A stretch of 64,000 nt of DNA from contig NC_088312.1 in NCBI RefSeq assembly GCF_910592395.1, forward strand, positions 22,515,292 through 22,579,291, read 5' to 3'. Source of the DNA: Lineus longissimus. Lineage: Eukaryota > Nemertea > Pilidiophora > Heteronemertea > Lineidae. The position numbers were made by a program, and so were the translations under genes. Of this stretch, positions 3,242-23,743 are shown in pieces (within the stretch, counting starts at the first letter, position 1; each line of letters begins with the position of its first letter). Under the pieces are notes generated by a model. It was not told the origin of the DNA. It made no database searches and saw only the letters and a program-made list of their open reading frames with translations.

Positions 3242-3574
3242 TGGATTGGACTCGGGAAGTCTCCCTCCACTCATCTGGGGAAACCACGCGCGAAGGTTTG
3301 GAAATGCGAGATTTGTAGTAAAGACTTTGTAAAAAAGTTCAATTTGAAAACGCATTTCAATACTATACACAAAGGATCTAAACCGTTCAAGTGTGAAATA
3401 TGTGAGAAGAGCTTCAAGCAGAAGGTTCATTTACAAAGTCATTTGTTGGTTCATAACAAAGTTGACGTGCCAGATGGCTTTGTTTGTCGAATCTGCGGGC
3501 GCAACTTTGCTAATCAGATGAGTTTGAATGTCCATATGTACAGGCAGGCAGCGTTGAATAAATGCACTGACTGA
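3242..3574 (+). CDS. Zinc-finger exon E1 (3 C2H2 fingers, partial gene)
   Basis: The acceptor is atgtcttgcag (3231-3241) and the first whole codon, TGG, follows it directly, so the exon is phase 0. It adds 110 residues and ends at TGA (3572-3574). Fingers start at Cys22 (CEIC), then CEIC and CRIC. Helix contact residues (-1,2,3,6) read K-F-N-T, Q-V-H-S and N-M-S-V. The first linker has an extra residue in the His spacing (HFNTIH) and the second is long and non-canonical, VHNKVDVPDGFVC. There is no ATG before the first finger, so translation must enter from another exon. An AATAAA at 3557 lies inside the coding part; a likelier processing signal is at 4165. Confidence 0.85.
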   Translation, partial: WIGLGKSPSTHLGKPRAKVWKCEICSKDFVKKFNLKTHFNTIHKGSKPFKCEICEKSFKQKVHLQSHLLVHNKVDVPDGFVCRICGRNFANQMSLNVHMYRQAALNKCTD

Positions 3575-4409
3575 TAGAAGATTGCATACGTTATTATATC
3601 CATTCTCGAATTCAGTTCATAGACTTGTCATAGATTGTGTTCAGTGAAGCCACGGTCCTGCTGGAAGCCATTTTTGTGCCAAAAACCACATTTCACACAC
3701 CCAAGTTGTCCTTTTAAAATCTGTTGTTTAATGTTATTCTGCTGTGTCTTGATCGTTCTAAATTCTCAGGAATGTCGGAAAGGGAATTGCTGGTTTCATT
3801 TCCACCACATGCTCTTCTTGTAATGATAACTCACACCTCTCATGCCCACTATGAGATGATCTTCATTAGTCGTCTTGTTATAGGAGTCTGGTGATCTTAA
3901 AAGACATTTCATAAAAGTCACCAATCCTTCCTGAAAGAATATCTCATGACAGTTGTTCTGACAAGCTAAAAGTATCATTTGGTAGATGATTCCAGAATGG
4001 ACGAATGTATGTGTCAATGTCCCCTGACCGGATGTGCAAATATGTCCTCAGTTTAACCCTCAGTTTGAAATTTATTACATAATGGGGTATATCAATACTG
4101 TTATTATTGTTGTGTTTGCAGTCTATGTGCATGCAGTGTGAAGTAACTTTTTGTCATTGATTGTAATAAAAATGTGCTGATATCAAATCAGTCTTTATTC
4201 AGTCCATCCATTGGCTTACTCACTCAGCTTTCATCCGTCTTCCTTTCCCAATCAACTACAGTCTGGTGGTGAAGATACTGTACCCTTCGTCTCGCCACTA
4301 TGACCATATAACTGCATTGCATCTTGGCGTACAATGACTGTCCCTTGTGGAGCATGACACATCTCTGACATAAAACTCAGAGTCTCAAATAACCTGTTTT
4401 ATTTTACAG
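3575..4409 (+). other. E1 3' UTR and following intron
   Basis: AT-rich and without coding signs. The 3' UTR of E1 probably ends near 4190, after the AATAAA at 4165. The remainder leads to the polypyrimidine tract and acceptor of E2. Confidence 0.5.
4165..4170 (+). terminator. Poly(A) signal for E1
   Basis: Canonical AATAAA about 590 bases after the E1 stop and about 240 bases before the E2 acceptor, followed within 40 bases by a T-rich stretch. Confidence 0.6.
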
Positions 4410-4727
4410 TTCTCTGGTCAACAAAACCTGGCCAAGTTCCCAAGAGAAGAAGGCGGCCAGCTAAAGCCTGTGTCGTGGTGGAGTTCTGTCACCCCTCCGC
4501 AAGGTTATTTGAAGGTGTATCAGTGTCCGATTTGCGAGCGGAGATTCCCGCGTTCAAGTAATCTTCGCGGCCATCTTCGGACTCATACGGGAGCGAAACC
4601 GTACATGTGCAGTTGTTGTAAACGAGAGTTTAATGACCGCTCGTCTCTGAGGCGCCATCTACGTACCATTCATGGAAAGATAAATCCAAATGAGGCCATA
4701 AGTGTCGACCGAGATTTGCTGAAGTGA
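4410..4727 (+). CDS. Zinc-finger exon E2 (2 C2H2 fingers, partial gene)
   Basis: The acceptor is tgttttattttacag, ending at 4409. The frame is open from TTC at 4410, giving 105 residues. The first 38 form a Gln/Pro/Ser-containing arm and the fingers start at Cys39 (CPIC) and at CSCC. The linker is TGAKPY, close to the canonical TGEKP. Contact residues are R-S-N-G and D-S-S-R. A 17-residue acidic tail follows the last finger. The first ATG-like start lies inside the exon behind the splice site and leaves out part of the arm, so entry by splicing is favoured. Confidence 0.85.
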   Translation, partial: FSGQQNLAKFPREEGGQLKPVSWWSSVTPPQGYLKVYQCPICERRFPRSSNLRGHLRTHTGAKPYMCSCCKREFNDRSSLRRHLRTIHGKINPNEAISVDRDLLK

Positions 4728-4738
4728 ACTTGAATCCT

Positions 4739-4995
4739 TAAGGTCAGTGTTCGACCTTGAATATTATTGTTAGAGCCTCTGTTTGAAGGTCATTGTTTGC
4801 CCTAGAGTCCTAATGTCAAGGTCACTGTTTGACCTAGAATCCTGTTGTCAAGGTCAGAACAAGAAATCTTGTTTTATCAAGGTTAAAATTGACGTAACAT
4901 TCAAATTGTCAGTGTTTGACCAAGGTTGAATCCTTTTGTTCAGGTTAATGTTTGACCTTCAGGCCTTTGTGAGAGACAGAATTCCAAGGTCAGTG
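4739..4995 (+). repeat. Degenerate tandem repeat rich in AGGTCA half-sites
   Basis: In the E2 3' region short phrases such as AAGGTCAGTGTTCGACCTT, TCAAGGTCACTGTTTGACC and TCAAGGTCAG recur every 40-60 bases with heavy divergence. TCAAGGTCA is the extended nuclear-receptor half-site used by ERR and NR5A-type receptors. The cluster may simply be a decayed minisatellite; regulatory use is not shown. Confidence 0.55.
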
Positions 4996-5172
4996 TGGTC
5001 AGAGGAATTGCGTGTTACTCTGTTGTTCTGCTGAGAATGAGAGATTGCTTTTCAACCAGATAACTATAGGTGCTTTCAAGTGTTTTATATAAACAAAGCT
5101 GCCTGTGGATATGCCTATTGGAAGTTCCAATTGTGTACCTCGAATCTAAACATTGGTCTCTGTATTTTTCAG

Positions 5173-5478
5173 TGGCCATCTTTGCCGTTCAGATGCAACA
5201 AAATTCAGCCTCCGCCAAAAGTAACCTGCAAGTTTTGTCAAAAACATTTCAAGTCGAATTACAGCCTAAAGGTTCATTTGGTGACCCATACGAATGATGG
5301 ATATAGGTGTGGGATCTGTGGAAAGGCATTTTACCAGCGAGTGGCCCTTCAGAGGCACTCCCTCACCCATACAGGGGAACGGCCTTTTGCTTGCAATCTC
5401 TGTGGGAGGACATTCATAAGGAACAATTTATTGAAAGTGCACATATATAAGGAACATTTTCATCAGAATTTGAATTGA
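5173..5478 (+). CDS. Zinc-finger exon E3 (3 C2H2 fingers, partial gene)
   Basis: The acceptor is ctctgtatttttcag, ending at 5172; TGG at 5173 starts the frame, which runs for 101 residues. Fingers begin at Cys19 (CKFC), CGIC and CNLC. The linker between fingers 1 and 2 is HTNDGYRC, one residue shorter than TGEKP; fingers 2 and 3 are joined by TGERPF. Contact residues are S-Y-S-V, Q-V-A-R and R-N-L-V. It is the first member of the E3-E10 family. AATAAA lies at 5772. Confidence 0.87.
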   Translation, partial: WPSLPFRCNKIQPPPKVTCKFCQKHFKSNYSLKVHLVTHTNDGYRCGICGKAFYQRVALQRHSLTHTGERPFACNLCGRTFIRNNLLKVHIYKEHFHQNLN

Positions 5479-6033
5479 AAGAGCCTCAAGTCTGTATCAG
5501 GCTTGGGTTATATCGGGTTCTCATCTTCATGTGTAACGGTTCACTTTTCACTTGTAACTTGTGACGTGAAGAACAGGTCATTTCATAAAGGTGGCTTCAT
5601 CGAATTCACAGTGTCATTTTTCACCCTCAGGCCGTGTCACCTCGGTTCGTGTTGGAGGACTTCCCGAAATGCTTTCAACAAGGATTTGACTACCTTAAAT
5701 ATCTACTTTGAAGAATCAGTATGTAAAAAGTTATAAAAATCATTCTCAGAGGAAGATTCTATCAGTTTCAGAATAAAGATGCATCCCTGTTGTATTGGAA
5801 CACTGTAAAAGTGCTTACTGACTGCCATCAGTAATTCTGATTGACTGCTGTAAGTGTTGTATGGTTTGGTTCATTTGTTTCTTCAGCTGCATGGAAAATT
5901 TATTTGTGATAAATTAAAGCGACAAGTTTGCTTTATCATTCTGTGCTTGGTGTCGTTTTATCGGAATTGCCCGAAAAAAAACTAGCAGAAAAAACAATTG
6001 CAATAAAATTAAAAAGCGCATTGTATTTTTCAG
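5479..6033 (+). other. E3 3' UTR and intron
   Basis: No coding content seen. AATAAA occurs at 5772-5777, 294 bases past the E3 stop, and again at 6002-6007 just before the E4 acceptor. Confidence 0.5.
5772..5777 (+). terminator. Poly(A) signal for E3
   Basis: AATAAA in CAGAATAAAGATGC, at a normal 3' UTR distance from the E3 stop codon. Confidence 0.6.
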
Positions 6034-6363
6034 TTGTCACCCGTTATCGTTCACTCGGTCACGTTCTTGAACTCCTTGCAGCAAAACCAAGACGATTATC
6101 GCCGACACGTATGCCAGTACTGCAACAAGGAGTTTAATTACCCAACAAGTCTCAAGTCTCATCTTGTTACGCACACCAACGACGGCTATCGTTGCGAACA
6201 ATGTGGGAAGGGATTTTATATGCGGAAGGATCTCGACCGACATTTGTTGGTTCATACGGGAGAATGGCCATTCTCTTGTGACATTTGTTCAAAGAAGTTT
6301 AGGCGCAAATATTTGTTGAAGCAGCATATGCTGTTGAAACATAAAGTCCAACTTTTGGATTGA
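6034..6363 (+). CDS. Zinc-finger exon E4 (3 C2H2 fingers, partial gene)
   Basis: The acceptor is ttgtatttttcag, ending at 6033; the first codon, TTG, is in phase 0 and the exon gives 109 residues. A 26-residue arm precedes Cys27 (CQYC); then come CEQC and CDIC. Linker 1-2 is HTNDGYRC; linker 2-3 is TGEWPF. Contacts are Y-T-S-S, M-K-D-R and R-Y-L-Q. Fingers 1 and 2 are very close to those of E7, which suggests a recent duplication. No clear AATAAA was seen before E5; a variant signal may serve. Confidence 0.87.
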   Translation: MSPVIVHSVTFLNSLQQNQDDYRRHVCQYCNKEFNYPTSLKSHLVTHTNDGYRCEQCGKGFYMRKDLDRHLLVHTGEWPFSCDICSKKFRRKYLLKQHMLLKHKVQLLD

Positions 6364-7013
6364 ACATGGCCCGTTCCACCAAAATGGCTACAATTCTGGA
6401 TATTGGGGTTTTATACTCTGATGTTTCTTGAGAAAGTCTTCACAATTCTTTTGGTGTGACATTAAGGATAGAAAAGTTTAGGTTGCTTGATGTGAGTCCA
6501 AAATATATCAATAACAAAAGACTTCCCAGTCAGCTATCATTTTGAATGAATCTCAACTTAAATGTTTCAAGTTGGTCCTTTTTTCCAAGTAAAATGTATT
6601 GTGCAATATCTGTTTGAAAGTCTCTACATTTCCAAGTATTCGTTTCCTTGTTGTTATTTGGCTCAAGTTTGTTTTTGTCTTGAAATGATGCTGAAGGCAA
6701 AGGTCAAGGTTGTAATGATGCTGCAGGTCAAGGACATTATAATCAGACAAATTGCATTGTTTTCTAGCAAAGTGAGTTCCATTAGTCACACTTGTGAATC
6801 GTCATCTTCACGTTTTCACTCAAAGCATAATGTCAGTTTTCACTAACACATTAACATTAACAACAACACAACCTGTGGAAGGGCTAACTGTAGAGAAACC
6901 TATAGAGTTTAGACACAGGTCTTTTGGTCATCTATTTCTTGCCTCTCCTCTTTCATTTGAGAACTTTTGACTCCCAGCCACTAAGTCTAAGAGTCCTGTT
7001 CTGTATTTTTCAG
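6364..7013 (+). other. E4 3' UTR and intron
   Basis: No coding content or canonical AATAAA recognised. It ends in the acceptor ctgtatttttcag of E5. Confidence 0.5.
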
Positions 7014-7334
7014 TGGCTTTTCGAGCAGTCCACGGAGGATTCAATGCAAACATTAATCGTGGAAACGGAGGCCTACTGGTGTCGTACTTGTCATAAGAAG
7101 ATTCCGAGATCAATCAGTCTCAAGGCACACATGCTCGAGCATTGTCGCTATCCATGTCGTTATTGTGGGAAGCCATTTCAGAAACGTTCGGATCAGGAAC
7201 GCCATCATCTTGTTCACTCCGGAGTCCGCCCGTTTTCTTGTCACATCTGTGGGAAGGCATTCAAACGAAAATACGAAGTGAAGAATCATAAACTTAAAGA
7301 TCATATGGACGTTCTATCATTATCTCCTCAGTAG
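7014..7334 (+). CDS. Zinc-finger exon E5 (3 C2H2 fingers, partial gene)
   Basis: The acceptor is ctgtatttttcag, ending at 7013; the frame opens at TGG and gives 106 residues. Finger 1 starts at Cys23 (CRTC) and has Ile in place of the core Phe. Only four residues (CRYP) separate its last His from the first Cys of finger 2, against seven in a TGEKP linker. Fingers 2 and 3 are joined by SGVRPF. Contacts are R-I-S-A, K-S-D-R and R-Y-E-N. It pairs with E6, which shares the four-residue gap and the SDxERH helix. Confidence 0.87.
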   Translation, partial: WLFEQSTEDSMQTLIVETEAYWCRTCHKKIPRSISLKAHMLEHCRYPCRYCGKPFQKRSDQERHHLVHSGVRPFSCHICGKAFKRKYEVKNHKLKDHMDVLSLSPQ

Positions 7335-7822
7335 ATCGCAGATCGGTAGATCGCAGTTTGGTAGATCGCAATTCGTATCACCCACATTGAAGTTTGTGTC
7401 TGCTATTCTTTAACAAACTAGTTTTGTGATAAATCATAAAGTTTTGAGACCATCAAAGGATGTTCTCTCGTTTTCTTCACATTAGGTCGGCAGATCTCGA
7501 TGTACATCGAACACCTACCATTCATGAACAACTATAAGACTACTTGAGGTGACCTTCAGGTTTCAAAACAGTAGAAGACTGTTCATATCAAAAACTAAAC
7601 CAACCGTCATGTAGAATCAATAGGGGTCGTCCCTTTTAATACAAGCACGTGCAATTACACTATAAAATGTCAACAGAATTTCATGAGGTTTCTGCCTGGA
7701 TGAAGTGATTGTTTTGTCCGCTCTTGAACTGACTTCGGTGAACGTCTTCCATTGCTCTGGTGACTTGGTCAAGGCATGTAACATTCTAACCATTTCTCTG
7801 CGATGAACTGGTATGCAGTGAG
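7335..7822 (+). other. E5 3' UTR or intron, upstream of the minisatellite
   Basis: It starts with three short echoes of the phrase gtagatcgca at about 7333-7368, then shows nothing recognisable. Confidence 0.4.
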
Positions 7823-8583
7823 TGCTATGAACATCCTTTGATGCCGTGCCCGTCTATAACGTCACGCTATGAACATCCTTTGATGCCGTGCCCGTCTATA
7901 ACATCACGCTATGAACATCCTTTGATGCTGTGCCCGTCTATAATGTCACGCTATGAACATCCTTTGATGCTGTGCCCGTCTATAACGTCACGCTATGAAC
8001 ATCCTTTGATGCTGTACCCGTCTATAACGTCACGCTATGAACATCCTTTGATGCCGTGCCCGTCTATAACGTCACGCTATGAACATCCTTTGATGCCGTG
8101 CCCGTCTATAACGTCATGCTATGAATATCCTTTGATGCCGTGCCCGTCTATAACGTCACGCTATGAACATCCTTTGATGCCGTGCCCGTCTATAACGTCA
8201 CGCTATGAACATCCTTTGATGCCGTGCCCGTCTATAATGTCACGCTATGAACATCCTTTGATGCTGTGCCCGTCTATAACATCACGCTATGAACATCCTT
8301 TGATGCTGTGCCCGTCTATAACGTCACGCTATGAACATCCTTTGATGCTGTGCCCGTCTATAACGTCACGCTATGAACATCCTTTGATGCTGTGCCCGTC
8401 TATAATGTCACGCTATGAACATCCTTTGATGCTGTGCCCGTCTATAACGTCACGCTATGAACATCCTTTGATGCTGTGCCCGTCTATAATGTCACGCTAT
8501 GAACATCCTTTGATGCCGTGCCCGTCTATAACGTCACGCTATGAACATCCTTTGATGCTGTGCCCGTCTATAACGTCACGCAA
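7823..8583 (+). repeat. 42-bp minisatellite, about 18 copies
   Basis: The unit contains CTATGAACATCCTTTGATG followed by a G+C-richer half ending CTATAACGTCACG. Copies differ by a few C/T transitions. Since 42 is divisible by three, the array stays open for 265 codons with a 14-residue period. That ORF has no domain, no splice context and arises from the period alone, so it is not called a gene. Each unit carries ACGTCA, a CRE half-site. Confidence 0.9.
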
Positions 8584-8736: not shown

Positions 8737-9165
8737 TTGACAGTTTTTCTGTCGCAGTCGTCATGGTCGTCAGACCCGCTTGAAATACAGATAGCAGACG
8801 TCCCAAAGGTTGAAAAAACATGCGACAGGGAGCTCAATAACAACAACGTCCCCAAGGTAGTAAGCACTGCTAAAAGTGCCACCTGGTGTAAAATATGCCG
8901 CACTAATTTTCCGGAGTTGAAGGAGCATATGGCCCAACATGCAAAATACTTGTGCAGTTATTGTCAAAAGACATTTTTGCAGAAATCTGATTGTGAACGG
9001 CACGTCGTTATTCATACAAATGAGCGTCCTTTTGTTTGTGAAGAGTGCGGAGTGTGCTTTAAGCGAAATTACGAGAAAACGCGGCACCGGGTCCAGCATC
9101 ACGGACACGTACCATTGCCTTCAAAGAGGTCACGTGGACCATATACCAAACTGAAATATCAATGA
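8737..9165 (+). CDS. Zinc-finger exon E6 (3 fingers, one shortened; partial gene)
   Basis: The acceptor is tctgctatcgtttcag, ending at 8736. This is the longest exon of the array (142 residues), with a 50-residue arm containing acidic and poly-Asn parts. Finger 1 starts at Cys51 but only two residues (Pro-Glu) lie between the core Phe and Leu where five are normal, so its helix is shortened and zinc folding is doubtful. A four-residue gap (AKYL) leads to finger 2 (CSYC); finger 3 is CEEC. Contacts of fingers 2 and 3 are Q-S-D-R and R-Y-E-R. The C-terminus is basic (KRSRGPYTKLK) and could act as a nuclear localisation signal. Confidence 0.85.
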   Translation: MTVFLSQSSWSSDPLEIQIADVPKVEKTCDRELNNNNVPKVVSTAKSATWCKICRTNFPELKEHMAQHAKYLCSYCQKTFLQKSDCERHVVIHTNERPFVCEECGVCFKRNYEKTRHRVQHHGHVPLPSKRSRGPYTKLKYQ

Positions 9166-10353: not shown

Positions 10354-10689
10354 GGTCATCAGTCCCCGACCCAAGTTTCCAGCGCACCCCAGTCCGTTGG
10401 TCCGAGTAGTTCAATCGAAGTCTTCAAATGCACATATTGCCCGAAGAAGTTTCGATATTCAACGAGCCTGAAATCACATCTCGTTCGACACACGAATGAT
10501 GGGTATCGCTGCGAGCATTGTGGGAAGGGGTTCTATTTGAAAAAAGATCTTGAGCGGCACGTTTTGGTTCATACAGGAGAGCGGCCATTTTGTTGCAGCA
10601 TTTGTGGGAAACGTTACCAGAGGAACTTCCAGTTGAAGATGCATATGTATAGGGAGCATGTCATCGGAAACGCAGGCGGACATTGTTGA
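10354..10689 (+). CDS. Zinc-finger exon E7 (3 C2H2 fingers, partial gene)
   Basis: The acceptor ggtgtactttcag ends at 10353. The frame opens at GGT and yields 111 residues: a 25-residue Ser/Pro/Gln arm, then CTYC (Cys26), CEHC and CSIC. Linkers are HTNDGYRC and TGERPF. Contacts are Y-T-S-S, L-K-D-R and R-F-Q-M; finger 1 contacts are identical to those of E4. The stop is TGA. Confidence 0.87.
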   Translation, partial: GHQSPTQVSSAPQSVGPSSSIEVFKCTYCPKKFRYSTSLKSHLVRHTNDGYRCEHCGKGFYLKKDLERHVLVHTGERPFCCSICGKRYQRNFQLKMHMYREHVIGNAGGHC

Positions 10690-12070: not shown

Positions 12071-12400
12071 TGTCAACCCCTCAATCTGTCAGCACACGTG
12101 CGACCCACAGCCAGACCAGGAGTTGCCAGGCCTGGACTATATACCTACCCCATGAATCGCTGCACATTCTGTTTTAAGGCGTTCGGCACGACGTCTAGTT
12201 TAAAAGTCCATCTCGTGACGCATACGAATGAGGGATTTAAATGCAACCTGTGCGGGAAAGCTTTCTACATGCGGACGCACCTTGACCGCCATCTTTTAAT
12301 GCATACGGGCGAGCGGCCATTTGCTTGTGCCGTTTGTGGGAAGAAGTACCGCCATAAACACGATCTCAAAAAGCATAAAGAATTGGAGCATGAGCGATAG
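12071..12400 (+). CDS. Zinc-finger exon E8 (3 C2H2 fingers, partial gene)
   Basis: The acceptor is ctgtatttttcag, ending at 12070; 109 residues follow, with a 30-residue Pro/Arg/Ala arm. Fingers start at Cys31 (CTFC), CNLC and CAVC. Linker 1-2 is HTNEGFKC, the one-residue-short type; linker 2-3 is TGERPF. Contacts are T-S-S-V, M-T-H-R and H-H-D-K. The third finger shares the KHDLKKH helix with E9 and E10, so these three form a subgroup. Confidence 0.87.
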   Translation, partial: CQPLNLSAHVRPTARPGVARPGLYTYPMNRCTFCFKAFGTTSSLKVHLVTHTNEGFKCNLCGKAFYMRTHLDRHLLMHTGERPFACAVCGKKYRHKHDLKKHKELEHER

Positions 12401-12693
12401 TATTCAGAGTTGGGGAGGGATGCCTTGATTTCATTGGAAGTTTAAGGATAAACATGATCTAAAACAAGCATAAAAATGGATGTATGACTGATTGATTTGA
12501 GATCTTTGGACCAAGGTGTGGCCTATTTCACTGTTTGTGTGGAACCTCATGATTATAGGCAGGGCGATTTGATTGGCGATAGACACTGTTTTCATTGTCT
12601 GTGTTTCCTAGTTAGTAGTGCAGTTCCAAGCTAGACACTATACACGCTTGGTGTCTCATGTTGTATAGAGTAGAAAGACTCCAAAACATAGTA

Positions 12694-12871
12694 CAGTAGA
12701 ACCTCTGTATTGAGGACACCCTGGGGACTGACCAGTGCTGTCCTTAATGGAGAGGTGTCCTGATTAAGGAGGTCAAACTGAATGGAAACAACCAATTTGG
12801 GACCAAAAGTAGTGACCGTAATAGAGAGGTTGTCCTTAATAGAGAGGTGTCCGCTAAGGGAGGTTCCACTG
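12694..12871. mobile_element. 178-bp MITE (copy 1), TA-flanked
   Basis: Starts CAGTAGAACCTC and ends GAGGTTCCACTG, imperfect terminal inverted repeats, with a TA on each side. That layout fits the Tc1/mariner superfamily, including pogo-like MITEs. Copy 2 at 17031-17208 has exactly the same length. Confidence 0.85.
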
Positions 12872-13064: not shown

Positions 13065-13578
13065 ACAATCACTTAACCATACTCAAGGCGTTCCATGAAT
13101 TTATTTTCCAGTCACGCTCGTATCCTTACAAGCCAAGGGCATCCTATTCGACTGAATTTAAGCTCCAGGTGGTCAGATTTGTGGAGGGAAATGGTGGAAC
13201 TTATGCAGCTGCTGGTCGGCACTTTCGTATCAATGAAAAGTTGGTGCGATACTGGCGAAAGGGAAAAGCTAAACTTGTGGACAAGCATCGTGAAAGTGTG
13301 AAAACTAGGGAGCACCATTGAAGTATTTGGACGTTACTTCGGAGAAGACTTATATTCAGACTTGTTTGAACGTCGGTTTAGTCCGCTATTGTCTCACTTC
13401 TTCAGCTTTCTCTCTGCCCTTTGAGGAGTGCTAAAATAGGTGTCATTTGAGTTCAATGTCCAGGTTCAAAATCCCTTTCACACTTGCAATAGAATTGTCC
13501 AGATTACCAAATCAACGGGCAATTTTTATAAAGTGCTTAAAACATTGTTTTCATCTCCAGCTATTCTGTATTTTTCAG

Positions 13579-13893
13579 ACTACGTCCACAGCAAATGAAT
13601 ATATTGGTTCGTCAGTCTTAATCCCCAGACAACCATATCGGTGCCAGCTTTGCCGCAAATCGTTCTCGTCTGTCCACAGTCTGAGGGCGCACACGGTGAC
13701 CCATACGAATGAAAGTGGCTTTAAATGTGCAGAATGTGGAAAGGCTTTCTATGTGAAGAAGAAGCTAGAGCGTCACCTATTGATCCATACGGGAGAGCAA
13801 CCGTTCGCTTGTGAAAAGTGCGGAAAGCCTTTCCGATATAAACATGATTTGAAGAAGCATGTGTTTATGAAACATTACCAATACCAGGCTTGA
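13579..13893 (+). CDS. Zinc-finger exon E9 (3 C2H2 fingers, partial gene)
   Basis: The acceptor is ctgtatttttcag, ending at 13578; the frame opens at ACT and gives 104 residues. Fingers start at Cys22 (CQLC), CAEC and CEKC. Linker 1-2 is HTNESGFKC, one residue longer than in its relatives and so of canonical length; linker 2-3 is TGEQPF. Contacts are S-H-S-A, V-K-K-R and Y-H-D-K. The stop is TGA; AATAAA follows at 14296. Confidence 0.87.
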   Translation, partial: TTSTANEYIGSSVLIPRQPYRCQLCRKSFSSVHSLRAHTVTHTNESGFKCAECGKAFYVKKKLERHLLIHTGEQPFACEKCGKPFRYKHDLKKHVFMKHYQYQA

Positions 13894-13917
13894 TAACGTT
13901 GGAACACCATTGAGAGA

Positions 13918-14110
13918 CATTTGTCAAGAGTTGTGCGTCTTCAATCGACCTGAACTTACACGAGCAGTTGCACATAAAAGGCCATAGATGTCGCCACTGT
14001 AGGGAACTCTTTGCCATGAAATGATACACACGGGCCAATGACCGTTCAAATGCAAAGTCTGTGGGAAAATGTCCCGTTATAAAGAGGATTTAAGAGGCAC
14101 ATTGCATCGG
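13918..14110 (+). pseudogene. Decayed copy of the E10 exon
   Basis: Closely parallels E10: TTACACGAGCAGTTGCAC against TTACACCAGCAGTTGCAC, then GGCCATAGATGTCGCCACTG in both, then TGCAAAGTCTGTGGGAAAATG against TGCAAAGTTTGTGGGAAAATG. The stretch that encodes the helix of finger 2 in E10 is deleted, and in-frame stops and frame changes are present. No acceptor precedes it. It lies in the E9 3' UTR and is best read as a failed tandem duplicate. Confidence 0.85.
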
Positions 14111-14295
14111 AGCACTTTTCTTTTAGCAATGAAAGTCGTGAATGAAGGCTGGCCATGGCACGAAAACAAAACGCAAAGGAATTTGGCTGAATTTGTCTGA
14201 TTGTATATATTTTTTTTGTTGGTTTTTCTTGCAGCCCATTTCAAGTTTTATCGTTGACTTAGAACCAGTACTTACACTGTTACAAGCATGGTAAC

Positions 14296-14345: not shown

Positions 14346-14630
14346 TTTCATCCGTCACCACGAATTGCCTTGGCGTATCCGTGCAGATTCTGTCAAAAGA
14401 TCTGTACCTCTTTGACCGACCGAAACTTACACCAGCAGTTGCACTTCAACGATGGCCATAGATGTCGCCACTGTGGGAAACTCTTCCCTGGAAAATGGGG
14501 TCTGGAGCGCCATGAAATGATACATACAGACAAACGACCGTTCACATGCAAAGTTTGTGGGAAAATGTATCGATATAAACATGATTTGAAAAGGCATATA
14601 GGGAATGAGCACTATTCTCAGGGCAGTTGA
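14346..14630 (+). CDS. Zinc-finger exon E10 (3 fingers, first degenerate; partial gene)
   Basis: The acceptor is ctgtatttttcag, ending at 14345; 94 residues follow, with only a 12-residue arm. Finger 1 (Cys13, CRFC) keeps its four ligands but has Cys and Arg at the two hydrophobic core positions (Phe and Leu normally), so it may fold poorly. Linker 1-2 is HFNDGHRC. Fingers 2 (CRHC) and 3 (CKVC) are sound, joined by TDKRPF; contacts are G-W-G-R and Y-H-D-R. The last codons are part of a 32-bp tandem repeat that runs on into the 3' UTR. Confidence 0.85.
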   Translation, partial: FHPSPRIALAYPCRFCQKICTSLTDRNLHQQLHFNDGHRCRHCGKLFPGKWGLERHEMIHTDKRPFTCKVCGKMYRYKHDLKRHIGNEHYSQGS

Positions 14631-15604: not shown

Positions 15605-15922
15605 TCTTCGGCGAGCCAGGACACTTTGAGGAGTTCAGCCCACGGACCGGGCTTAGCGTGCCCAGTATGCAAGCGGAACTTCTTCTATAAACACTCCTTA
15701 TCAGAGCATATGAGGTGCCACACTGGCGAAAAACCATTCAGTTGCAGAATTTGCGATATGAGGTTCTCGCACGCGAGTTCACTCAAGCGACATGTTCGAG
15801 TCCATACGGGAGAACGTCCTTATGTCTGTGAATTCTGCCAGAAAGGATTTATCCAGTCGAGTGATTTGAAAACTCATATATTCTCGCGCCACAAGAAACC
15901 TATAGTTGGAAAATATACGTAG
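15605..15922 (+). CDS. Zinc-finger exon E11 (3 C2H2 fingers, partial gene)
   Basis: The acceptor is ttgttcttgcag, ending at 15604; 105 residues. After an 18-residue Ser-rich arm come CPVC (Cys19), CRIC and CEFC with canonical linkers TGEKPF and TGERPY. Contacts are Y-H-S-E, H-S-S-R and Q-S-D-T. This is the first member of the second family (E11-E21), which uses classical linkers and does not share the CTGTATTTTTCAG acceptor. The stop is TAG. Confidence 0.87.
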
Positions 15923-16383: not shown

Positions 16384-16713
16384 TTTGTAACTGGCTGTAA
16401 GGAGGATAACTTGCAAGGAAATCTTACAACCCAAACTCAGGAAATCATTCCATTTAAATTTCACAAGTGTCGCGTGTGCAATTATGTTGGGAAGCGTGAG
16501 GCGCTGGTCAAGCACATGCGCCGACATACGGGAGAGAGACCATATGCGTGTAAAGTCTGCGGGAGAGCCTTCACCCTTTCCAATACTCTTCGGGATCATA
16601 TGTATATTCATACAGGAGAAAAACCATTTTCTTGTTCGAAATGTGATTGGAAATTCACCCAGAAAAGTAATCTGCGACGACACATGTGTTTAATCCATAA
16701 AGGACCATTATAG
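16384..16713 (+). CDS. Zinc-finger exon E12 (3 C2H2 fingers, partial gene)
   Basis: The acceptor is tttcttattttgcag, ending at 16383; 109 residues with a 28-residue arm. Finger 1 (Cys29, CRVC) has the compact form CNYVGKREALVKH, without the usual aromatic core residue. Finger 2 is CKVC and finger 3 CSKC; linkers are TGERPY and TGEKPF. Contacts of fingers 2 and 3 are L-N-T-D and Q-S-N-R. The stop is TAG. Confidence 0.87.
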   Translation, partial: FVTGCKEDNLQGNLTTQTQEIIPFKFHKCRVCNYVGKREALVKHMRRHTGERPYACKVCGRAFTLSNTLRDHMYIHTGEKPFSCSKCDWKFTQKSNLRRHMCLIHKGPL

Positions 16714-17250
16714 GGCATACAGTCTACTGAGTTTTACACCAACTGCTACAAGAGCCTGGTGAGACCTTAGCGCTGTCAAAGCCTTGGGTTTACAATGATG
16801 TTTGGCTAGGGTAGTTGTGTTGTCTGAAAACCATGGTTTTCAAATGTTGCAGCATTATCTAAACACATGCTTGTGACCTTTGACTATTCACTGCACTCTT
16901 AAAATGAGAAGATGATGGGCTCCTCTCTGATGAAACCAGGAAGTCATTAGACCATAATCCCAACAGAGTGTTTTGTGGTTCCCAATTGTTGCCGATACAG
17001 TGAGTTCAGAAGCCCACCTCTCGAAATATACAGTAGAACCTCTCTATTAAGGACACCCTCTGGACTTAAAAGTGCTGTCCCTAATAAAGAGGTGTCCTGA
17101 TTAGAGAGGTGAAATTGAATGGAAATAATCAATTTGGGACCAAAACAAGTGTCCTTAATAGAGAGGTTGTCCTTATTAGAGAGGTGTCCGCTAAGGGAGG
17201 TTCCACTGTACAATCAAATCTTACATCTGTTCCTTCTCTTGTCTTTGCAG
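16714..17250 (+). other. E12 3' UTR and intron with MITE
   Basis: MITE copy 2 (17031-17208) ends 42 bases before the E13 coding start. AATAAA at about 17084 lies inside the MITE. Nothing else recognised. Confidence 0.45.
17031..17208. mobile_element. 178-bp MITE (copy 2), TA-flanked
   Basis: Same ends and length as the element at 12694-12871: CAGTAGAACCTC at the left and GAGGTTCCACTG at the right, with TA on both sides. Its insertion places a hairpin-capable sequence directly before the E13 branch-point region. Confidence 0.85.
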
Positions 17251-17625
17251 TTGGGTCAAGCCTTCGGGCCACCACCCTTCTGCCGAACGGCACACAATGT
17301 CGCTGCCAAGTTTGCTTGTGACGTCTGTGGGTTCATGACATCTAAGCCCGATGAATTTAAAACACACATGAATTCTCACCTGGACCTTTTTCCATATCAG
17401 TGCACGTTATGTAGGCGACATTCGCCAAGGGTTTAGAGCTCAATGCTCATCGGCGTAGCCAAACCTCTGAAATGTCTCATATGTGGTCGCACCTTTGCTA
17501 GGAAGGACACTCTTGAAGTTCACATGAACATCCACTCGTCGACATACAAGTGTCAAGTTTGTGGCCACTGCAGCTCTGCAAAGTTCAACTTGAAGATCCA
17601 CATGAAAAAGCATGAAAAGAAGTAG
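17251..17625 (+). pseudogene. Zinc-finger exon E13, frame-broken (4 fingers)
   Basis: The acceptor is cttgtctttgcag, ending at 17250, and the frame opens at TTG in phase 0. Finger 1 (CDVC) is intact. Within finger 2 (CTLC) the frame meets TAG at 17434-17436. Between 17418 and about 17456 another frame gives TFAKGLELNAH, the expected finger core and helix, after which the original frame resumes with fingers 3 (CLIC) and 4 (CQVC). Two compensating indels therefore explain the break. Either the exon is decaying or the assembly carries two base errors. As written, the product would end after one finger and a stub. It is the only exon with four fingers. Confidence 0.75.
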
Positions 17626-18321: not shown

Positions 18322-18339
18322 GTTCATTCATTACGTGTT

Positions 18340-18707: not shown

Positions 18708-19007
18708 TACGGGACACCGCCAGCATTTGTGCCACAACCACACTTCGTGTGCAAAATCTGTGGCTTTTTCTCTGTGACCAGAGACAATCTCGATGCCCAT
18801 GTTGCAAGGACTCATGGAGACCGGCGTTTTCTATGTCATGTCTGCGACAAGTCGTTCACGCGGAAATTCTCGCTGCGTGAGCATATGAGGATTCACACTG
18901 GAGAAAAACCATTTGAATGTCGTATCTGTGGAAAGTGTTTCACTCAAAAGAGCACTCTTCAAGGACACCAGTTGGTCCATCAGGCCAACAAGTATGGGCT
19001 AACATAA
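18708..19007 (+). CDS. Zinc-finger exon E14 (3 C2H2 fingers, partial gene)
   Basis: The acceptor is ctcctttcttattttgcag, ending at 18707; 99 residues with a short Pro/Phe arm. Finger 1 (Cys15, CKIC) has a four-residue His spacing (HVARTH) and is joined by GDRRFLC; fingers 2 (CHVC) and 3 (CRIC) are linked by TGEKPF. Contacts of fingers 2 and 3 are R-F-S-E and Q-S-T-G. The stop is TAA and AATAAA follows at 19120, the shortest 3' UTR of the array. Confidence 0.87.
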   Translation, partial: YGTPPAFVPQPHFVCKICGFFSVTRDNLDAHVARTHGDRRFLCHVCDKSFTRKFSLREHMRIHTGEKPFECRICGKCFTQKSTLQGHQLVHQANKYGLT

Positions 19008-19125: not shown

Positions 19126-19221
19126 AACACAGGCAATTGAGTGATGTTATTAGAAAAGATGTAACATTATCTTCCAAGTTTGATCTGTAAAAACCTGTAG
19201 CTTGACCAAGCTCTGTGATCC

Positions 19222-19330
19222 TGGTGACCTCGTGGTTGAGGTGTTTGCCCTGTGAATGGAAGGCCAAAGTTTTGAGCCCCATTGATCGCTCTTCTAATGT
19301 GGTTGGTGCGCGGTCGGGTACAAACTGCCT
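19222..19330 (+). repeat. SINE-like element with tRNA-like head
   Basis: TGGTGACCTCGTGGTTGAGG resembles a tRNA 5' half and GTTTTGAGCCCC a degenerate B box. A tail with GTGCGCGGTCGGGTACAAAC follows. It is more diverged than the element at 11741. Confidence 0.45.
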
Positions 19331-19784
19331 TCTTGCCAGGTGCCTGGCATTAGAGACAGGAGTTTGGAAGCAAAGAGTGTCTCATAAGTCATAAGCCAAA
19401 TCTGGCTGGCCCTTTCATATAAGGTCTGTCTCTATAATAAACAAACTTTACTCGCGTGATAGTACAGCAAATCTGCCCGGGACCCTGCTGCTGGAAACTG
19501 AAATTGTGCATCGAAAGTGACCAGTGTTTTTGGCGATTTTCTCAGTTGCTTTTAAGGACCTCACTTGTCAATATCATTGGTGCCACAAGATTGGAACAAT
19601 ACAAGTTCATCAAAGGAATATTAAGCTGAAATACAAGTCCAAGTGTTACTCATTTACAAAACCTTTTGTTTTTTATAGCGTGGAATTAAAATGAAAATTG
19701 AAGCACATATGGCAGAAATATCAGAGACCAAAGAGTGATTCCAAGAAACAGTTGACTGTCTCATCCTCTGATTTGTCTTTCCAG

Positions 19785-20039
19785 ATGGGGATCCTGCGAA
19801 GGAGTATTGGAAAGGATTCTCCGTTATACTGCAGCATCCGAGAAGACGGTGTTGCCCGATTCAAATGTAAAATCTGCGGTCATTTTTCCTTGAAAGTCTC
19901 GCATATGAAGGAGCACATTAAGCGGCACACGGGCGAGAAACCATTCGAATGTGCGATATGCGGCAAGAAGTTTGCTCAGAAGCATAGTCTGAGAAGCCAT
20001 AACGTATCAATACACCTCAGGAACAAACTGTCAAATTGA
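19785..20039 (+). CDS. Zinc-finger exon E15 (2 C2H2 fingers, partial gene)
   Basis: The acceptor is ctgatttgtctttccag, ending at 19784; the first codon happens to be ATG, but phase and context match the other exons. 84 residues: a 27-residue arm, then CKIC (Cys28, compact form without core Phe spacing) and CAIC joined by TGEKPF. Contacts of finger 2 are Q-H-S-S. The stop at 20037-20039 lies only 43 bases before the next acceptor-linked exon, so no room remains for a separate 3' UTR of usual length. Confidence 0.85.
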   Translation: MGILRRSIGKDSPLYCSIREDGVARFKCKICGHFSLKVSHMKEHIKRHTGEKPFECAICGKKFAQKHSLRSHNVSIHLRNKLSN

Positions 20040-20082
20040 AGTACTGAAAACCGCCAAAGTTTTGCAGCTCTTTTTTCCCCAG

Positions 20083-20181
20083 AAGTCACCAAGAACTGTG
20101 GCATTCCCCTGCCCTGTTTGTGGGAGAAGGTTCCGACAACTTAGTTCAATGAAACGTCACACAAGGACAAAACACTTCTGA
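20083..20181 (+). CDS. Zinc-finger mini-exon E16 (1 C2H2 finger, partial gene)
   Basis: A strong acceptor, cagctcttttttccccag, ends at 20082. The frame opens at AAG in phase 0 and codes for 32 residues: nine of arm, then one finger from Cys10 (CPVC) with core RRFRQLSSMKRH and HTRTKH, and TGA at 20179-20181. Contacts are Q-S-S-R, the same as the last finger of E17, so E16 looks like a truncated paralogue of E17. Too short for ordinary ORF calling. It could be functional or a remnant; every expected zinc ligand is present. Confidence 0.7.
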   Translation, partial: KSPRTVAFPCPVCGRRFRQLSSMKRHTRTKHF

Positions 20182-20545
20182 TATACTGAGTACATTTGAC
20201 TGATGAGAGTCTGTACATGTGGCATCAACTGTGTAACCTCTCTATGTGAACATTTCTGTAAGGAGGACACCCTTTCTATTGAGGACAGCAATAATGGTTC
20301 TAAGTGGACCTTTTCTAAAAGACTTGACCTTTGTAGTTGGGACAACTGTCTAGGGACATCACATGTCGGTCCTAGGAACTGTAATTATATTGTCTTTACC
20401 CCTTTGAGCTTCTCAGTTTAAACTGATGATGATCCTACACGCTTTCAGTAGTTTTGCTTTGCACTTATCTATTTCACTGTAACAATACAAAAGATTATCC
20501 TCATCATTGACAAACAAGCTAATTTTCCATTTGCTTGTCTTACAG
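20182..20545 (+). other. E16 3' region and intron
   Basis: A degenerate relative of the 178-bp MITE spans about 20224-20320 (AACCTCTCTATG and GAGGACACC phrases). No AATAAA seen. Confidence 0.4.
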
Positions 20546-20779
20546 TTGCGTAAAACGTGGACGTCACCTAAATTGCGTCTGTCGCAGTTTAAGTGTAAAG
20601 TGTGCGGTATGTCGCTCGGTGGGAAGCAGAACTTGGAGCTTCACATGCGGCGTCATACGGGGGAACAGCCGTATGGGTGCTCCATATGCGGTAGGAGGTT
20701 TTCGCAGAGTAGTTCGATGAGACGTCACATGATGGTGGTCCACTCAACGATGGTCAATCTGGGAAATTCCTTTTGTTGA
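20546..20779 (+). CDS. Zinc-finger exon E17 (2 C2H2 fingers, partial gene)
   Basis: The acceptor is ttgcttgtcttacag, ending at 20545; 77 residues. Finger 1 (Cys17, CKVC) has Leu at the core aromatic position; the linker is TGEQPY; finger 2 is CSIC. Contacts are G-Q-N-L and Q-S-S-R. The stop is TGA. Confidence 0.86.
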   Translation: MRKTWTSPKLRLSQFKCKVCGMSLGGKQNLELHMRRHTGEQPYGCSICGRRFSQSSSMRRHMMVVHSTMVNLGNSFC

Positions 20780-21303
20780 AGCTTTCAGATGTGGACACTA
20801 ATACTGAGGCATGGAAATAGCCAATTCGGGACCAAATTCAGTCACCTCAAAAGTGAGGGGTCCTGCCATATTGCAGGTGTTCCCATTGAGTATGTTGCCT
20901 GCAGTCCTGCAAAGTTACAACATGAATGATATGACTGTCATGTTCAATATTGAATTCAAATGTGACAGTTTAGTCATAAAAAAGTATGTTTCAATTTCAT
21001 TCCATCATCAACTTTCTGTTTTGGTTTCTTAACGAAAGTTCCTGAGTGCCAAAGTTTGGCCTACTTGTCTTCGATGAAAGCCTAGTTTTGCTTCTGTTCT
21101 TTTTAATTCTCAGTGTTTACAATAAGTCCTTTGTAATTTTCTATTGTGTGTTTATATTCAATTCCAACGTTGATCAATGTGTGTAACTGATGTACTGTTG
21201 TGATATTTTAGCTTGTACTATACCCACACAACCCTGTGGGAGGACGGCCTCCAAGTTATACTTTTTTTACATGAGACACATCGCTCGACTTGTATATTTC
21301 CAG
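20780..21303 (+). other. E17 3' region and intron
   Basis: A short fragment related to the inner part of the 178-bp MITE lies at about 20811-20870. Otherwise nothing recognised. Confidence 0.4.
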
Positions 21304-21597
21304 TATGCATCTTCAGGCAACCCACAAGACTCTGGCTCTATACCATTCATATGCCCCGTTCATAAGAACCTCATGACACTGAGCTGTCTAAACATCCACA
21401 TCAGGAAACACACCAGAGAAAAACTGTTTAAATGTCCGTCTTGTAATATGGTGTTTTTGTGGAGTTATTCGCTCCACAGGCATAACATGATCCGTTCTGG
21501 AGAGAGACCGTTTCATTGTCGGGTTTGCGGAGAAGGCTACATTCAGTTGATTAATCTTCAGCATCATCAGGTGGTGAAACATGTCAAACTTTTGTAA
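21304..21597 (+). CDS. Zinc-finger exon E18 (3 fingers, two with lost ligands; partial gene)
   Basis: The acceptor is cgacttgtatatttccag, ending at 21303; 97 residues. Finger 1 reads CPVHKN where CxxC is expected, so its second Cys is missing. Finger 2 (CPSC) ends HNMIRSGERPF with Arg in place of the last His. Only finger 3 (CRVC) is complete. The frame is nevertheless fully open to TAA. The exon may encode a one-finger product or be losing function. AATAAA is at 21906. Confidence 0.82.
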   Translation, partial: YASSGNPQDSGSIPFICPVHKNLMTLSCLNIHIRKHTREKLFKCPSCNMVFLWSYSLHRHNMIRSGERPFHCRVCGEGYIQLINLQHHQVVKHVKLL

Positions 21598-21905
21598 TTA
21601 GGTTTATAAATCTTGCAGTTGTTTCTGTCACGCTACCAGTAACCTTGTACATTACTTTTGTTTTATCAGTTGATTTGTGTAATCAAGAGAAAGAAATACA
21701 TGTTGATATTGAAACAGATCTGATGTGTTCTTCACATATTTTTGATTTGTGTTCATACATATCTCTCTGCAATGCTCTCCCAGTATGGTTGCCAAGACAT
21801 TTTCTATACATTTGTTCCATTACTAAGCCAGCTTATTTCCTCATTAGTTAGAAATTTTGAATTTTTTCAGAACCTGGGGAAATTCACTTTGTAAAAAAGA
21901 TACGG

Positions 21906-21911
21906 AATAAA
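21906..21911 (+). terminator. Poly(A) signal for E18
   Basis: AATAAA in CGGAATAAATTCTGTG, 309 bases past the E18 stop. Confidence 0.6.
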
Positions 21912-21972
21912 TTCTGTGGGTTGAAACACCATTGTAAATTATCATTTCATTGAGGTCCTATTATATTTGCAG

Positions 21973-22302
21973 CCATATTGGAAGAGATTTACGAGCTCCG
22001 TGCTTCAGCCAACGCCACCTATAGGCCCGGCAGCAAACACTTGCCCGATCTGTGGACGCCATCTCTCGACGCCCGGATACCTACGGATCCACATGCGCAT
22101 CCACACGGGAGAGAAACCACATAAGTGCGTTATCTGTGGTGTCAGTTTCTCACACGGTGTGACGTTAGTCCGGCATATGCGTATTCATACAGGAGAGAAA
22201 CCATATGAGTGCAGATTCTGTGGAGTGACGTTTAGGCAGGCTGCTCACATGAAGAACCATGCGTTGAAACGCCATGGAAAACTGATATTTCTGAGAAAAT
22301 AA
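21973..22302 (+). CDS. Zinc-finger exon E19 (3 C2H2 fingers, partial gene)
   Basis: The acceptor is cctattatatttgcag, ending at 21972; 109 residues with a 23-residue Pro-rich arm. Fingers start at Cys24 (CPIC), CVIC and CRFC, joined by two perfect TGEKP linkers. Contacts are T-G-Y-I, H-V-T-R and Q-A-H-N. This is the most canonical unit of the array. The stop is TAA. Confidence 0.88.
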   Translation, partial: PYWKRFTSSVLQPTPPIGPAANTCPICGRHLSTPGYLRIHMRIHTGEKPHKCVICGVSFSHGVTLVRHMRIHTGEKPYECRFCGVTFRQAAHMKNHALKRHGKLIFLRK

Positions 22303-22595
22303 GAAAACGAAAAAAACTGACTGAAATGGGGCTGGTGAAAACAATATATCGACTGCATTAGGATTAGAAAACAGAAATCAAATGGGCAAAGAACACAATA
22401 TCATCAAGTTTGTGTTCAACCTGCCGCTGATCGAGACTCCATTACATGACTCATTCTGCAATCGAACCATTGCTTTTCAGATACTTGCAAGCTCACTTCT
22501 TGTGCAAACTGTCAAATTACCAAAGTTTTTTCATCAAGGTTCAATTCAGTTAAAAAACCATTGTAATCGAATATCTCACTTTCTTCTCTCCGCAG

Positions 22596-22907
22596 TTCAC
22601 TGTCTTCAAAGTAGGAAAGTTTGAGACGTGTGCATTTTGTGGGAAACTCTTCCAAGGGGCAACGTCACTGAAAGTTCATCTGAGGATCCACACGGGAGAG
22701 AAACCATTCAAATGCATGATCTGTACAGCCGGATTCACCCAGGAATGTAACCTACAGCGCCACATGTTGGTACACACAGGAACTAAACCGTATTCGTGTG
22801 TGAAGTGTGGGCGATGTTTCAACCAGAGGTCGAACCGTGAGCGCCATATGGCTACGTGTGGCCTACCAAAGAGATTAGGACCTTTGCCTAAGTTTATACC
22901 ACAGTGA
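22596..22907 (+). CDS. Zinc-finger exon E20 (3 fingers, last C2HC; partial gene)
   Basis: The acceptor is ctttcttctctccgcag, ending at 22595, and the frame opens at TTC in phase 0, 120 bases before the first in-frame ATG. 103 residues: CAFC (Cys12), CMIC and CVKC, with linkers TGEKPF and TGTKPY. The third finger ends HMATC, a C2HC ligand set. Contacts are G-T-S-V, Q-C-N-R and Q-S-N-R. A Pro-rich tail precedes TGA. Confidence 0.87.
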
Positions 22908-23431
22908 CTGATAGTTGGGAGGTGGTGCAATTTAGAATTGACCCTATGCCATTGGGAGTTGCCATTAATGATTACAGAGGTCAGATTCAATGGAAATGAT
23001 GAATTGGGGACTGAATGTGGTATCCTTATTAGACATGGTGTCCTCTGTAGAGAGGTTTCCACTAATGAAGGTTTCACTGTATCTAGTCAATGCTGTGCAC
23101 TTATTTACGACTTGAACTGAAATTGGCTGAAGTAACATCGAACAGTTGTACATATAATGATATATTTCTAAATGTCGTGAGAAATAAAGTTCATGATAAT
23201 CACTTATTTGGTGCCTTTGAATTTTTCTATAAGGAGGATGGAAGACTGCCTCAACCGATACGCGACTGAGTGGTGGTGGAGATGGCCGGTAGCAGCTGTC
23301 TCTTAGGCCTATTAGGCCGTTGGAAAAGTGTGTCCTGAACAAGGAAGTGTATATTGATATTGTTGTCTCTGTTGTTCTCACAGTTGTCTCATCATGGTTG
23401 AAGATTCAAAGATCTCACTTTACCGTTTCAG
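22908..23431 (+). other. E20 3' UTR and intron with MITE relic
   Basis: A diverged right half of the 178-bp MITE family spans about 22970-23081 and ends GGTTTCACTGTA. AATAAA is at 23183. No coding content. Confidence 0.5.
23183..23188 (+). terminator. Poly(A) signal for E20
   Basis: AATAAA in GAGAAATAAAGTTCATG, 276 bases past the E20 stop. Confidence 0.6.
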
Positions 23432-23743
23432 CAGACGTTTTCCAAGCCGGTCATCTCCACATACCAACAGGCCTGGTTGACACGCATTCCTCTGGGAATA
23501 TCACAGTTTCAACCTCCATTTTCCACAACTGACCCTTCAAACCGTGAAAGACGTAATCCAGAGACATTGAAGGCATACAAGTGCAACCTGTGCCCGGCAA
23601 CTTTCTCCAACAAGTATAACTGTCGTCGTCACCACCAACTCAAACATCTGAACGAGAAAAACTTTGGATGTGACGTCTGTGGGAAACGGTTCGCAAGTAA
23701 ACAAAGTTTGCAGTATCACTCGGCATTACATCGCATGACATGA
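23432..23743 (+). CDS. Zinc-finger exon E21 (2 C2H2 fingers, last of the array)
   Basis: The best acceptor is cactttaccgtttcag, ending at 23431, giving a 50-residue Gln/Pro/Thr-rich arm before Cys51 (CNLC) and CDVC. In-phase alternatives exist at the AG ending 23470 and the one ending 23506, both with weaker pyrimidine tracts. The first finger has a four-residue His spacing (HHQLKH), and the linker LNEKNF departs from TGEKP. Contacts are N-Y-N-R and S-Q-S-Y. The stop is TGA; AATAAA is at 24013. Confidence 0.82.
   Translation, partial: QTFSKPVISTYQQAWLTRIPLGISQFQPPFSTTDPSNRERRNPETLKAYKCNLCPATFSNKYNCRRHHQLKHLNEKNFGCDVCGKRFASKQSLQYHSALHRMT

Follow-up and report, generated by a model that had tools for sequence, protein, structure and literature searches.

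The DNA analyzed here, which we call the window, is a 64-kb stretch (64,000 nucleotides) of chromosome 5 (C5) of the nemertean Lineus longissimus, positions 22515292-22579291. In the published genome this chromosome is given as 23.94 Mb (PMC8593623). Between 3242 and 23743 the window carries 21 units encoding C2H2 zinc fingers, arranged head to tail on the + strand; together with uBrk, a probable helix-turn-helix (HTH) unit, there are 22 tail candidates. Apart from chance matches at 33992 and 53633, neither of which is a finger, every finger-pattern match in the window is on the + strand between 3305 and 23743. We consider it about 90% probable that this array is the variable 3' half of a single gene, LOC135487923, in which a shared N-terminus of 417 amino acids is joined through one donor to any of about 20 alternative terminal DNA-binding tails. 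The original prediction had described an array of 21 alternative zinc-finger last exons in a genome that did not look like that of an arthropod. The source of the DNA agrees with the latter point, and the count overlooked a 22nd candidate tail, uBrk. The features are listed below in window coordinates, with negative numbers lying upstream of position 1.

-3593 to -2949, +, shared coding exon A (P0004 residues 1-215, no mismatch)
-2612 to -2007, +, shared coding exon B (P0004 residues 216-417, no mismatch)
1..3241, +, 3' part of the intron from the shared donor to the first tail (protein-to-DNA mapping, junction sequences)
3242..3574, +, u01, C2H2, three fingers by Pfam (phase-0 acceptor 3242; Pfam zf-C2H2)
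4410..4727, +, u02, C2H2 (acceptor, Pfam)
5173..5478, +, u03, C2H2, first in the u03-u10 in-array expansion (TGTATTTTTCAG at the acceptor; Pfam)
6034..6363, +, u04, C2H2, acceptor 6034 or 6082 (acceptor, Pfam)
7014..7334, +, u05, C2H2, in-frame ATG at 7044 (acceptor, Pfam)
8758..9165, +, u06, C2H2, acceptor 8758 or 8737 (acceptor, Pfam)
10354..10689, +, u07, C2H2 (same sequence as the C-terminal 111 residues of P0004)
12071..12400, +, u08, C2H2, in-frame ATG at 12152 (acceptor, Pfam)
13112..13318 (also given as 13112..13321), +, uBrk, probable Brinker-type HTH tail without zinc finger, weaker phase-0 acceptor (PF09607)
13579..13893, +, u09, C2H2, acceptor 13579 or 13561 (acceptor, Pfam)
13895..14140, +, relic, dead u10 copy containing gaps and stops (80% mean column identity in alignment A2; tblastn fragments)
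14346..14630, +, u10, C2H2 by pattern (finger pattern, acceptor)
15605..15922, +, u11, C2H2 by pattern (finger pattern, acceptor)
16384..16713, +, u12, C2H2 by pattern (finger pattern, acceptor)
17251..17625, +, u13, C2H2, in-frame TAG at 17434-17436 and damaged second finger, probably dead (pattern; the part after the TAG matches zf-C2H2)
18708..19007, +, u14, C2H2 by pattern (finger pattern, acceptor)
19785..20039, +, u15, C2H2 by pattern, the ATG being the exon start (finger pattern, acceptor)
20083..20181, +, u16, one C2H2 finger, 32 codons, doubtful as an independent tail (starts 44 nt past the u15 stop)
20546..20779, +, u17, C2H2 by pattern (finger pattern, acceptor)
21304..21597, +, u18, C2H2 by pattern, first fingers degenerate (finger pattern, acceptor)
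21973..22302, +, u19, C2H2 by pattern (finger pattern, acceptor)
22596..22907, +, u20, C2H2 by pattern (finger pattern, acceptor)
23435..23743, +, u21, C2H2 by pattern (same sequence as the C-terminal 102 residues of P0007)

Two predicted proteins connect the array to its front end. A protein search scored on tail u04 returned the Lineus longissimus protein P0004 (“zinc finger protein 236-like isoform X2”), which ends in 111 residues that match u07 letter for letter and start exactly at acceptor 10354. A search with the N-terminus of P0004 returned P0007, which is LOC135487923 isoform X8. The first 417 residues of these proteins are identical, and the last 102 residues of P0007 correspond exactly to u21 from 23435, the start that we adopted from this annotated isoform because 23384 runs into a stop. 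Since u07 and u21 both sit behind one front end, P0004 and P0007 were taken as isoforms of one gene.

The shared residues map to two exons located 3.6-2.0 kb upstream of the window. The common donor is at window coordinate -2006 (chromosome 5 position 22513285; base 7994 of L009) and is in phase 0, with the sequence AAG/GTAGGGATC, where the slash marks the exon boundary; the junction of exon B and donor reads GATGGAAAG/gtagggatcagttt. A shared donor upstream of the array had been anticipated and was thus found, with two predicted proteins passing from the shared N-terminus into u07 and u21 exactly at their acceptors. Because exon B ends at this donor, upstream of the window, the introns to be excised would range from 5.2 kb (donor to u01) to 25.4 kb (donor to u21). 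When the window was searched by tblastn with 69 family proteins (E 1e-3), the shared exons were not found within its 64 kb and no more tails were found at 24-64 kb.

The units themselves have the properties of terminal exons. We scored candidate acceptors with ad hoc weights and took, for each unit, the best one among the 160 nt that precede its first zinc-binding stretch, these stretches being picked by eye. The best site was in phase 0 in 21/21 C2H2 units, where chance would give 1/3 for each. In u10 the best-scoring acceptor, 14235, is closed by a stop and the usable one is 14346. The 12-mer TGTATTTTTCAG occurs six times on the two strands of the 64 kb, and all six occurrences are at unit acceptors. 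From acceptor to the stop behind the last finger the frame is uninterrupted in 20 of the 21 C2H2 units (u21 from 23435), the exception being u13. The expectation of 21 acceptor-led, phase-0 finger exons with an in-frame stop held for acceptors and phase in this test; it failed for u13, which is broken, and u16 has a single finger. The units had also been said to lack a usable donor and a usable start. The former is in agreement with our few strict patterns, which found no strong donor-like site between first finger and stop in any of the 22 units. The latter was too strong, as an in-frame ATG lies between acceptor and first finger in u05, u08, and u15 (3/22, with none in the other 19). As controls we scanned acceptor-led open frames of at least 45 codons outside the units in 1-26 kb (n = 15, some nested). 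A codon score of 0.13 was reached by none of these and by 2 of 73 frames elsewhere, and besides uBrk no non-zinc-finger tail with a coding-like codon score was found in 1-26 kb. Rfam and tRNA scans of the window were empty.

The claim had implied a single locus. The locus is real; it is also one of at least 24 annotated, distinct, paralogous Lineus N-termini, all except one on chromosome 5. This number counts groups plus singletons, with P0018 as its own locus, and it is a lower bound because one of the groups corresponds to two genomic loci and there is a genomic locus without a matching group. The first search with the N-terminus, which scored the 8000 candidates sharing most words, yielded 69 clusters: 68 from Lineus, representing 189 member sequences (67 clusters on chromosome 5 and one that fits chromosome 11), and one metagenome protein. 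In two such protein-database searches the family was found only in Lineus and in this metagenome protein. In each of the 17 N-terminus groups that we tabulated, the member sequences agree completely as far as one point, beyond which they diverge; that point is ...DGK/ in 11 groups and another in six. The pair P0038/P0058, in which only the first 236 residues are common, was excluded from this table, and in the P0055/P0056 group the tails themselves are 77% alike.

The LOC135487923 locus has the exon-end-plus-donor pattern AAG/GTAGGNATC after ...DGK. This pattern occurs at 15 sites in 391 Mb, 14 on C5 and one on chromosome 11 (C11), compared to none for the reversed control. An open frame lies upstream at all 15, and at 14 of them annotated family proteins contain the last 40 residues of that frame exactly. 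L021, at 11.434 Mb of chromosome 5, is a shared-donor locus whose 40 residues before the donor are absent from all proteins fetched.

The 144 kb around the window contain five loci, of which one is inverted. A tail array is present behind each of the five N-termini examined, and the finger open reading frames (ORFs) number 14, 17, 5, 21, and at least 11. Thirteen annotated tails belong to four of these loci; 11 of the 13 are single phase-0 exons directly after AG, and the strand and array of these 11 match their own N-terminus. Two of the loci, L013 and L012 (22.473 and 22.479 Mb), lie on opposite strands and have N-termini that are nearly identical in the compared parts, with arrays that clearly differ (14 vs 17 finger ORFs); this pair is a natural test case for the rate at which arrays diverge. 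P0067-P0072 (LOC135488797 and differently named isoforms) form a divergent family member, and the tails of P0068 and P0071, which gave no Pfam match at E 1e-4, possibly represent further domain types.

The metagenome protein, P0074, is encoded on a 6893-bp contig and is a relative of the P0026 locus (80% identity over 88% of the query region). Judged from the protein, it reads as if made via the same donor (...EGK/VGIK). In a tree of all 24 Lineus N-termini it groups with P0026 with support 99/98; that branching therefore predates the split of the two species. These sequence comparisons suggest that the family is present in at least one other organism. We found no description of the family in the literature searched, which comprised titles and abstract starts with subscription journals mostly outside the scope, and in the genome paper (PMC8593623) we found no word that begins with “zinc”.

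Several observations weigh against one gene with about 20 interchangeable last exons. The joined isoforms are known here as NCBI-predicted models (“Xn”), and the tails joined to the shared N-terminus in them are 2 of 22 (u07 and u21). Cluster sizes imply about eight annotated isoforms (label X8; 1 + 7 members). A separate database cluster was returned for none of the other 11 tails that exceed 102 amino acids, and more than half of the array may therefore lack annotation. When the acceptor test was rerun automatically with a stricter finger pattern, the best site was in phase 0 in 19/21 window units and 38/47 units of the neighboring arrays, and out of phase in 2/21 and 9/47, respectively. AATAAA follows 11/22 units, which is a weak enrichment (16 occurrences, vs 4-15 for permuted words and 7 for TTTATT). 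The acceptor of uBrk is weak (score 0.27), and the best site nearby is out of phase. Finally, not every tail in the family is a single last exon: the tail of P0046 maps to two exons. As that of P0031 was also not found as one exon, “last exon” is a rule with exceptions.

One alternative is that the units are small, separate zinc-finger genes arranged in tandem, each of which has a promoter and a first exon to itself, like the genes of KRAB-zinc-finger clusters. Clusters of C2H2 genes are common, and the three units with an in-frame ATG before the first finger would fit such genes. However, the other 19 have no such ATG, all 21 C2H2 units have phase-0 acceptors, and two annotated proteins link units to one shared N-terminus with a single upstream donor. 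We rejected this reading on the shared N-terminus in two proteins, the phase-0 acceptors, and the one donor, and regard it as highly improbable. Another possibility is that tails are joined by trans-splicing between separate shared-exon and tail transcripts, for which there is precedent in the reports on lola and mod(mdg4) (PMC11426971). Here, all units are on one strand, downstream of the donor and within 25.4 kb, so that cis-splicing suffices, and trans-splicing is in our opinion improbable.

It could also be speculated that the shared-donor gene is real and that a minority of its tails is used (about eight annotated), the others being relics of a decaying array. This is consistent with the isoform number implied by the cluster sizes and with the decay of u13 and of the copy at 13895-14140. 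On the other hand, 20/21 C2H2 units are uninterrupted to the stop behind the last finger, and pairs among u03-u10, including tails without a seen isoform, show strong constraint. We consider such restricted use rather unlikely. For the preferred reading, a gene with about 20 usable tails, the exons, the donor, the acceptor-like sites, their phase, the two exact junctions in predicted proteins, and the paralogous loci can be taken as established at the level of sequence; the use of the other 20 tails, dimerization, DNA binding, and co-repressor recruitment are what we infer.

The unit between u08 and u09, uBrk, differs from the rest in its domain. It matches BrkDBD (PF09607) at 31.7 bits, above the Pfam cut-off of 23.4; it is acceptor-led in phase 0 and ends in a stop. 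Its codon score is 0.16 in frame and -0.24 and -0.49 in the other frames, a level met by 2/73 control frames. Two family proteins from other loci, P0017 and P0018, end in Tc5-type HTH tails, which makes a non-finger tail plausible here. Alternatively, uBrk could be a leftover transposon HTH that lies in the array by chance. Pogo-like transposons carry domains similar to the Brk-type HTH, and the weak acceptor and the two control frames that reach a codon score of at least 0.13 would agree with such an origin. This is somewhat doubtful, however, as uBrk is on the right strand, in phase 0, and coding-like in one frame only with a stop, its Pfam match exceeds the cut-off, and Tc5-type HTH tails occur elsewhere in the family. 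We conclude that uBrk probably encodes a Brinker-type HTH tail.

The shared N-terminus shows no BTB domain. A search upstream of the array for a BTB or other shared N-terminal domain had been suggested; a shared part of 417 amino acids is indeed there, and it has a predicted coiled coil and linker in place of a BTB domain. AlphaFold2 modeled P0004 with helices at residues 16-74 and 83-213, disorder to about residue 430, and then three fingers. The 10-residue block means of this model are mostly 83-98 in the helices (69-77 around residues 71-90), mostly below 50 in the linker, and 87-96 in the fingers. Heptad contrast over residues 21-215 was 0.42-0.48 in 8/8 N-termini tested, compared to about 0.27 ± 0.03 in shuffles. 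The shared part is thus predicted to form a coiled coil (about residues 16-213) followed by a disordered linker. Among the 60 of 144 PDB matches listed for P0004, the best stretch was in the fingers save for one match starting at residue 386. The linker contains EIPDSP in 19/24 N-termini and PPTLDLS in 16/24; P0004 has an EIPDSPP..LDLS-type motif, and P0050 has PLDLS itself. The family motif PPTLDLS resembles PLDLS, which is a CtBP-binding site of transcription factors (PMC9907507).

These features suggest the following mechanism. One promoter would transcribe the shared exons and the tail array, and the phase-0 donor of the last shared exon would be joined to any of some 20 phase-0 acceptors further downstream. 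The chosen acceptor would open a terminal exon with its own DNA-binding tail and stop, in most cases two to three C2H2 fingers and once probably a Brinker-type HTH. The resulting transcription factors would have a dimerization and effector part in common and DNA-reading ends that are interchangeable; they may dimerize via the coiled coil, read DNA through the chosen tail, and perhaps recruit CtBP through the linker motif. The demonstrated part of this mechanism is the gene anatomy only.

The best-known gene of similar design is lola of Drosophila, in which one shared N-terminal part is combined with about 20 or more C-termini, mostly C2H2 (PMC11426971, PMC10514308). Like lola, LOC135487923 has one head, one donor, and many C2H2 tails, as seen in its predicted isoforms. 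The head of lola is a TTK-type BTB domain, whereas that of LOC135487923 is a predicted coiled coil and disordered linker; lola is described as one locus, whereas Lineus, a member of another phylum, has at least 24 paralogous N-termini. A profile scan of P0004 matched only zinc-finger families (five; E 0.01) and no BTB domain. The genome has 89 BTB matches, and those on C5 lie only at 0.31 Mb, 22 Mb from the locus. A BTB-type head was rejected on both grounds, and LOC135487923 is therefore not a member of the lola family. Similarly, mod(mdg4) combines a common BTB part with variable C-termini in at least 30 isoforms (PMC11426971). It shares the common head and variable C-termini with the Lineus gene and differs by its BTB domain, its mostly FLYWCH tails, and trans-splicing; no FLYWCH domain was seen among the best 25 families per tail in the 10 of 22 tails scanned (E 0.1).

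Other systems share single aspects of the design. C2H2 sequences have grown and diverged in tandem in the vertebrate KRAB-zinc-finger clusters, where every gene has its own front end; in Lineus the growth is also in tandem, but one front end serves the array. No KRAB, ZAD, or SCAN domain was found in P0004 (five families, all zinc finger), nor among the 25 of 34 families listed for A1. Clustered protocadherins combine variable first exons, which have their own promoters, with one constant part. They show the mirror-image logic, as the variable exons come first there and last in Lineus, and the proteins are unrelated. Host-transposase fusions by transposase capture likewise place a transposase-like HTH on a host regulatory protein, as in P0017, P0018, and perhaps uBrk, although in Lineus the HTH is one option among zinc-finger tails. 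Taken together, we read the locus as part of a multi-locus analogue of lola that evolved independently, and not as its orthologue. The suggestion of independent evolution in the original prediction is thus in line with the lack of a BTB domain in the shared part.

The history of the array can be read in part from its units. u03-u10 are best relatives among one another, and six of them have TGTATTTTTCAG at the acceptor in common. The proportion of synonymous differences (pS) exceeds that of nonsynonymous differences (pN) in 28/28 pairs, and the synonymous distance (dS) is saturated in 27. With synonymous sites near saturation and moderate amino-acid differences, we take these exons to be old and constrained. 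The best relative lies in the same array for 35/68 finger ORFs over the five loci, and for 25/81 in the set of window and annotated tails. It is likely that new units arise through tandem duplication of exons while others decay and are lost, and that whole loci, front end and array together, have been duplicated, mainly along chromosome 5.

Sequence divergence extends to the putative DNA contacts. Taking finger positions -1, 2, 3, and 6 as contact residues, the 52 fingers of the window give 49 different sets, and only three sets are shared with the 184 fingers of other loci. Among u03, u04, and u07-u10, contact positions differ at 0.72 vs 0.54 for other positions (F and L excluded), which is suggestive.

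A wider interpretation, which we put forward tentatively, is a nemertean combinatorial system unrelated to those described: at least two dozen coiled-coil genes with arrays of exchangeable tails that are born, diversified, and lost, giving hundreds of factors whose coiled coils possibly pair across loci. The five arrays seen have 5 to 22 tails each, and family tails include C2H2, Tc5-type HTH, and probably Brk-type HTH. If true, lola-type neural identity codes and KRAB-type transposon control would both have their nemertean counterpart in this system. The preferred reading by itself would mean that one head with many DNA-binding tails, a design best known from insect BTB genes, evolved a second time in a different phylum, with an unrelated protein as its scaffold, and spread by copying to about two dozen loci. 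It would also make testable why such loci evolve, whether for cell-identity codes, transposon control, or other uses. The names given to isoforms of the family are unrelated to one another (“sal-like protein 4”, “Krueppel-like factor 8”, and “zinc finger protein 236-like” are examples), and automatic annotation can hide such systems in this way.

Repeats and mobile-element remains accompany the array. Just beyond the last tail is a minisatellite (24590-25464, 64-bp unit x 13.7), which was maybe seeded by a decayed finger exon, since the translated unit holds the finger linker IHTGDKP. A second one lies between u05 and u06 (7824-8581, 42-bp unit x 18), with a frame open for 281 codons, 42 being a multiple of 3. 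Related repeats, TAATAGAGAGGTGTCC...GGTTCCACTGTA, were recognized by eye at 12690-12870 and 17025-17212 in non-coding DNA of the array and are perhaps a short mobile element. An ependymin-related gene had also been mentioned; three ORFs were tested and none gave a Pfam match, among them possibly the ORF that was meant, a signal-peptide-like one at 49465-49653 on the - strand. Elsewhere in the window, also on the - strand, are an endonuclease fragment at 27775-28488, which we take to be LINE-like (long interspersed nuclear element), and a DDE_Tnp_4 fragment at 34444-35067, presumably Harbinger-like.

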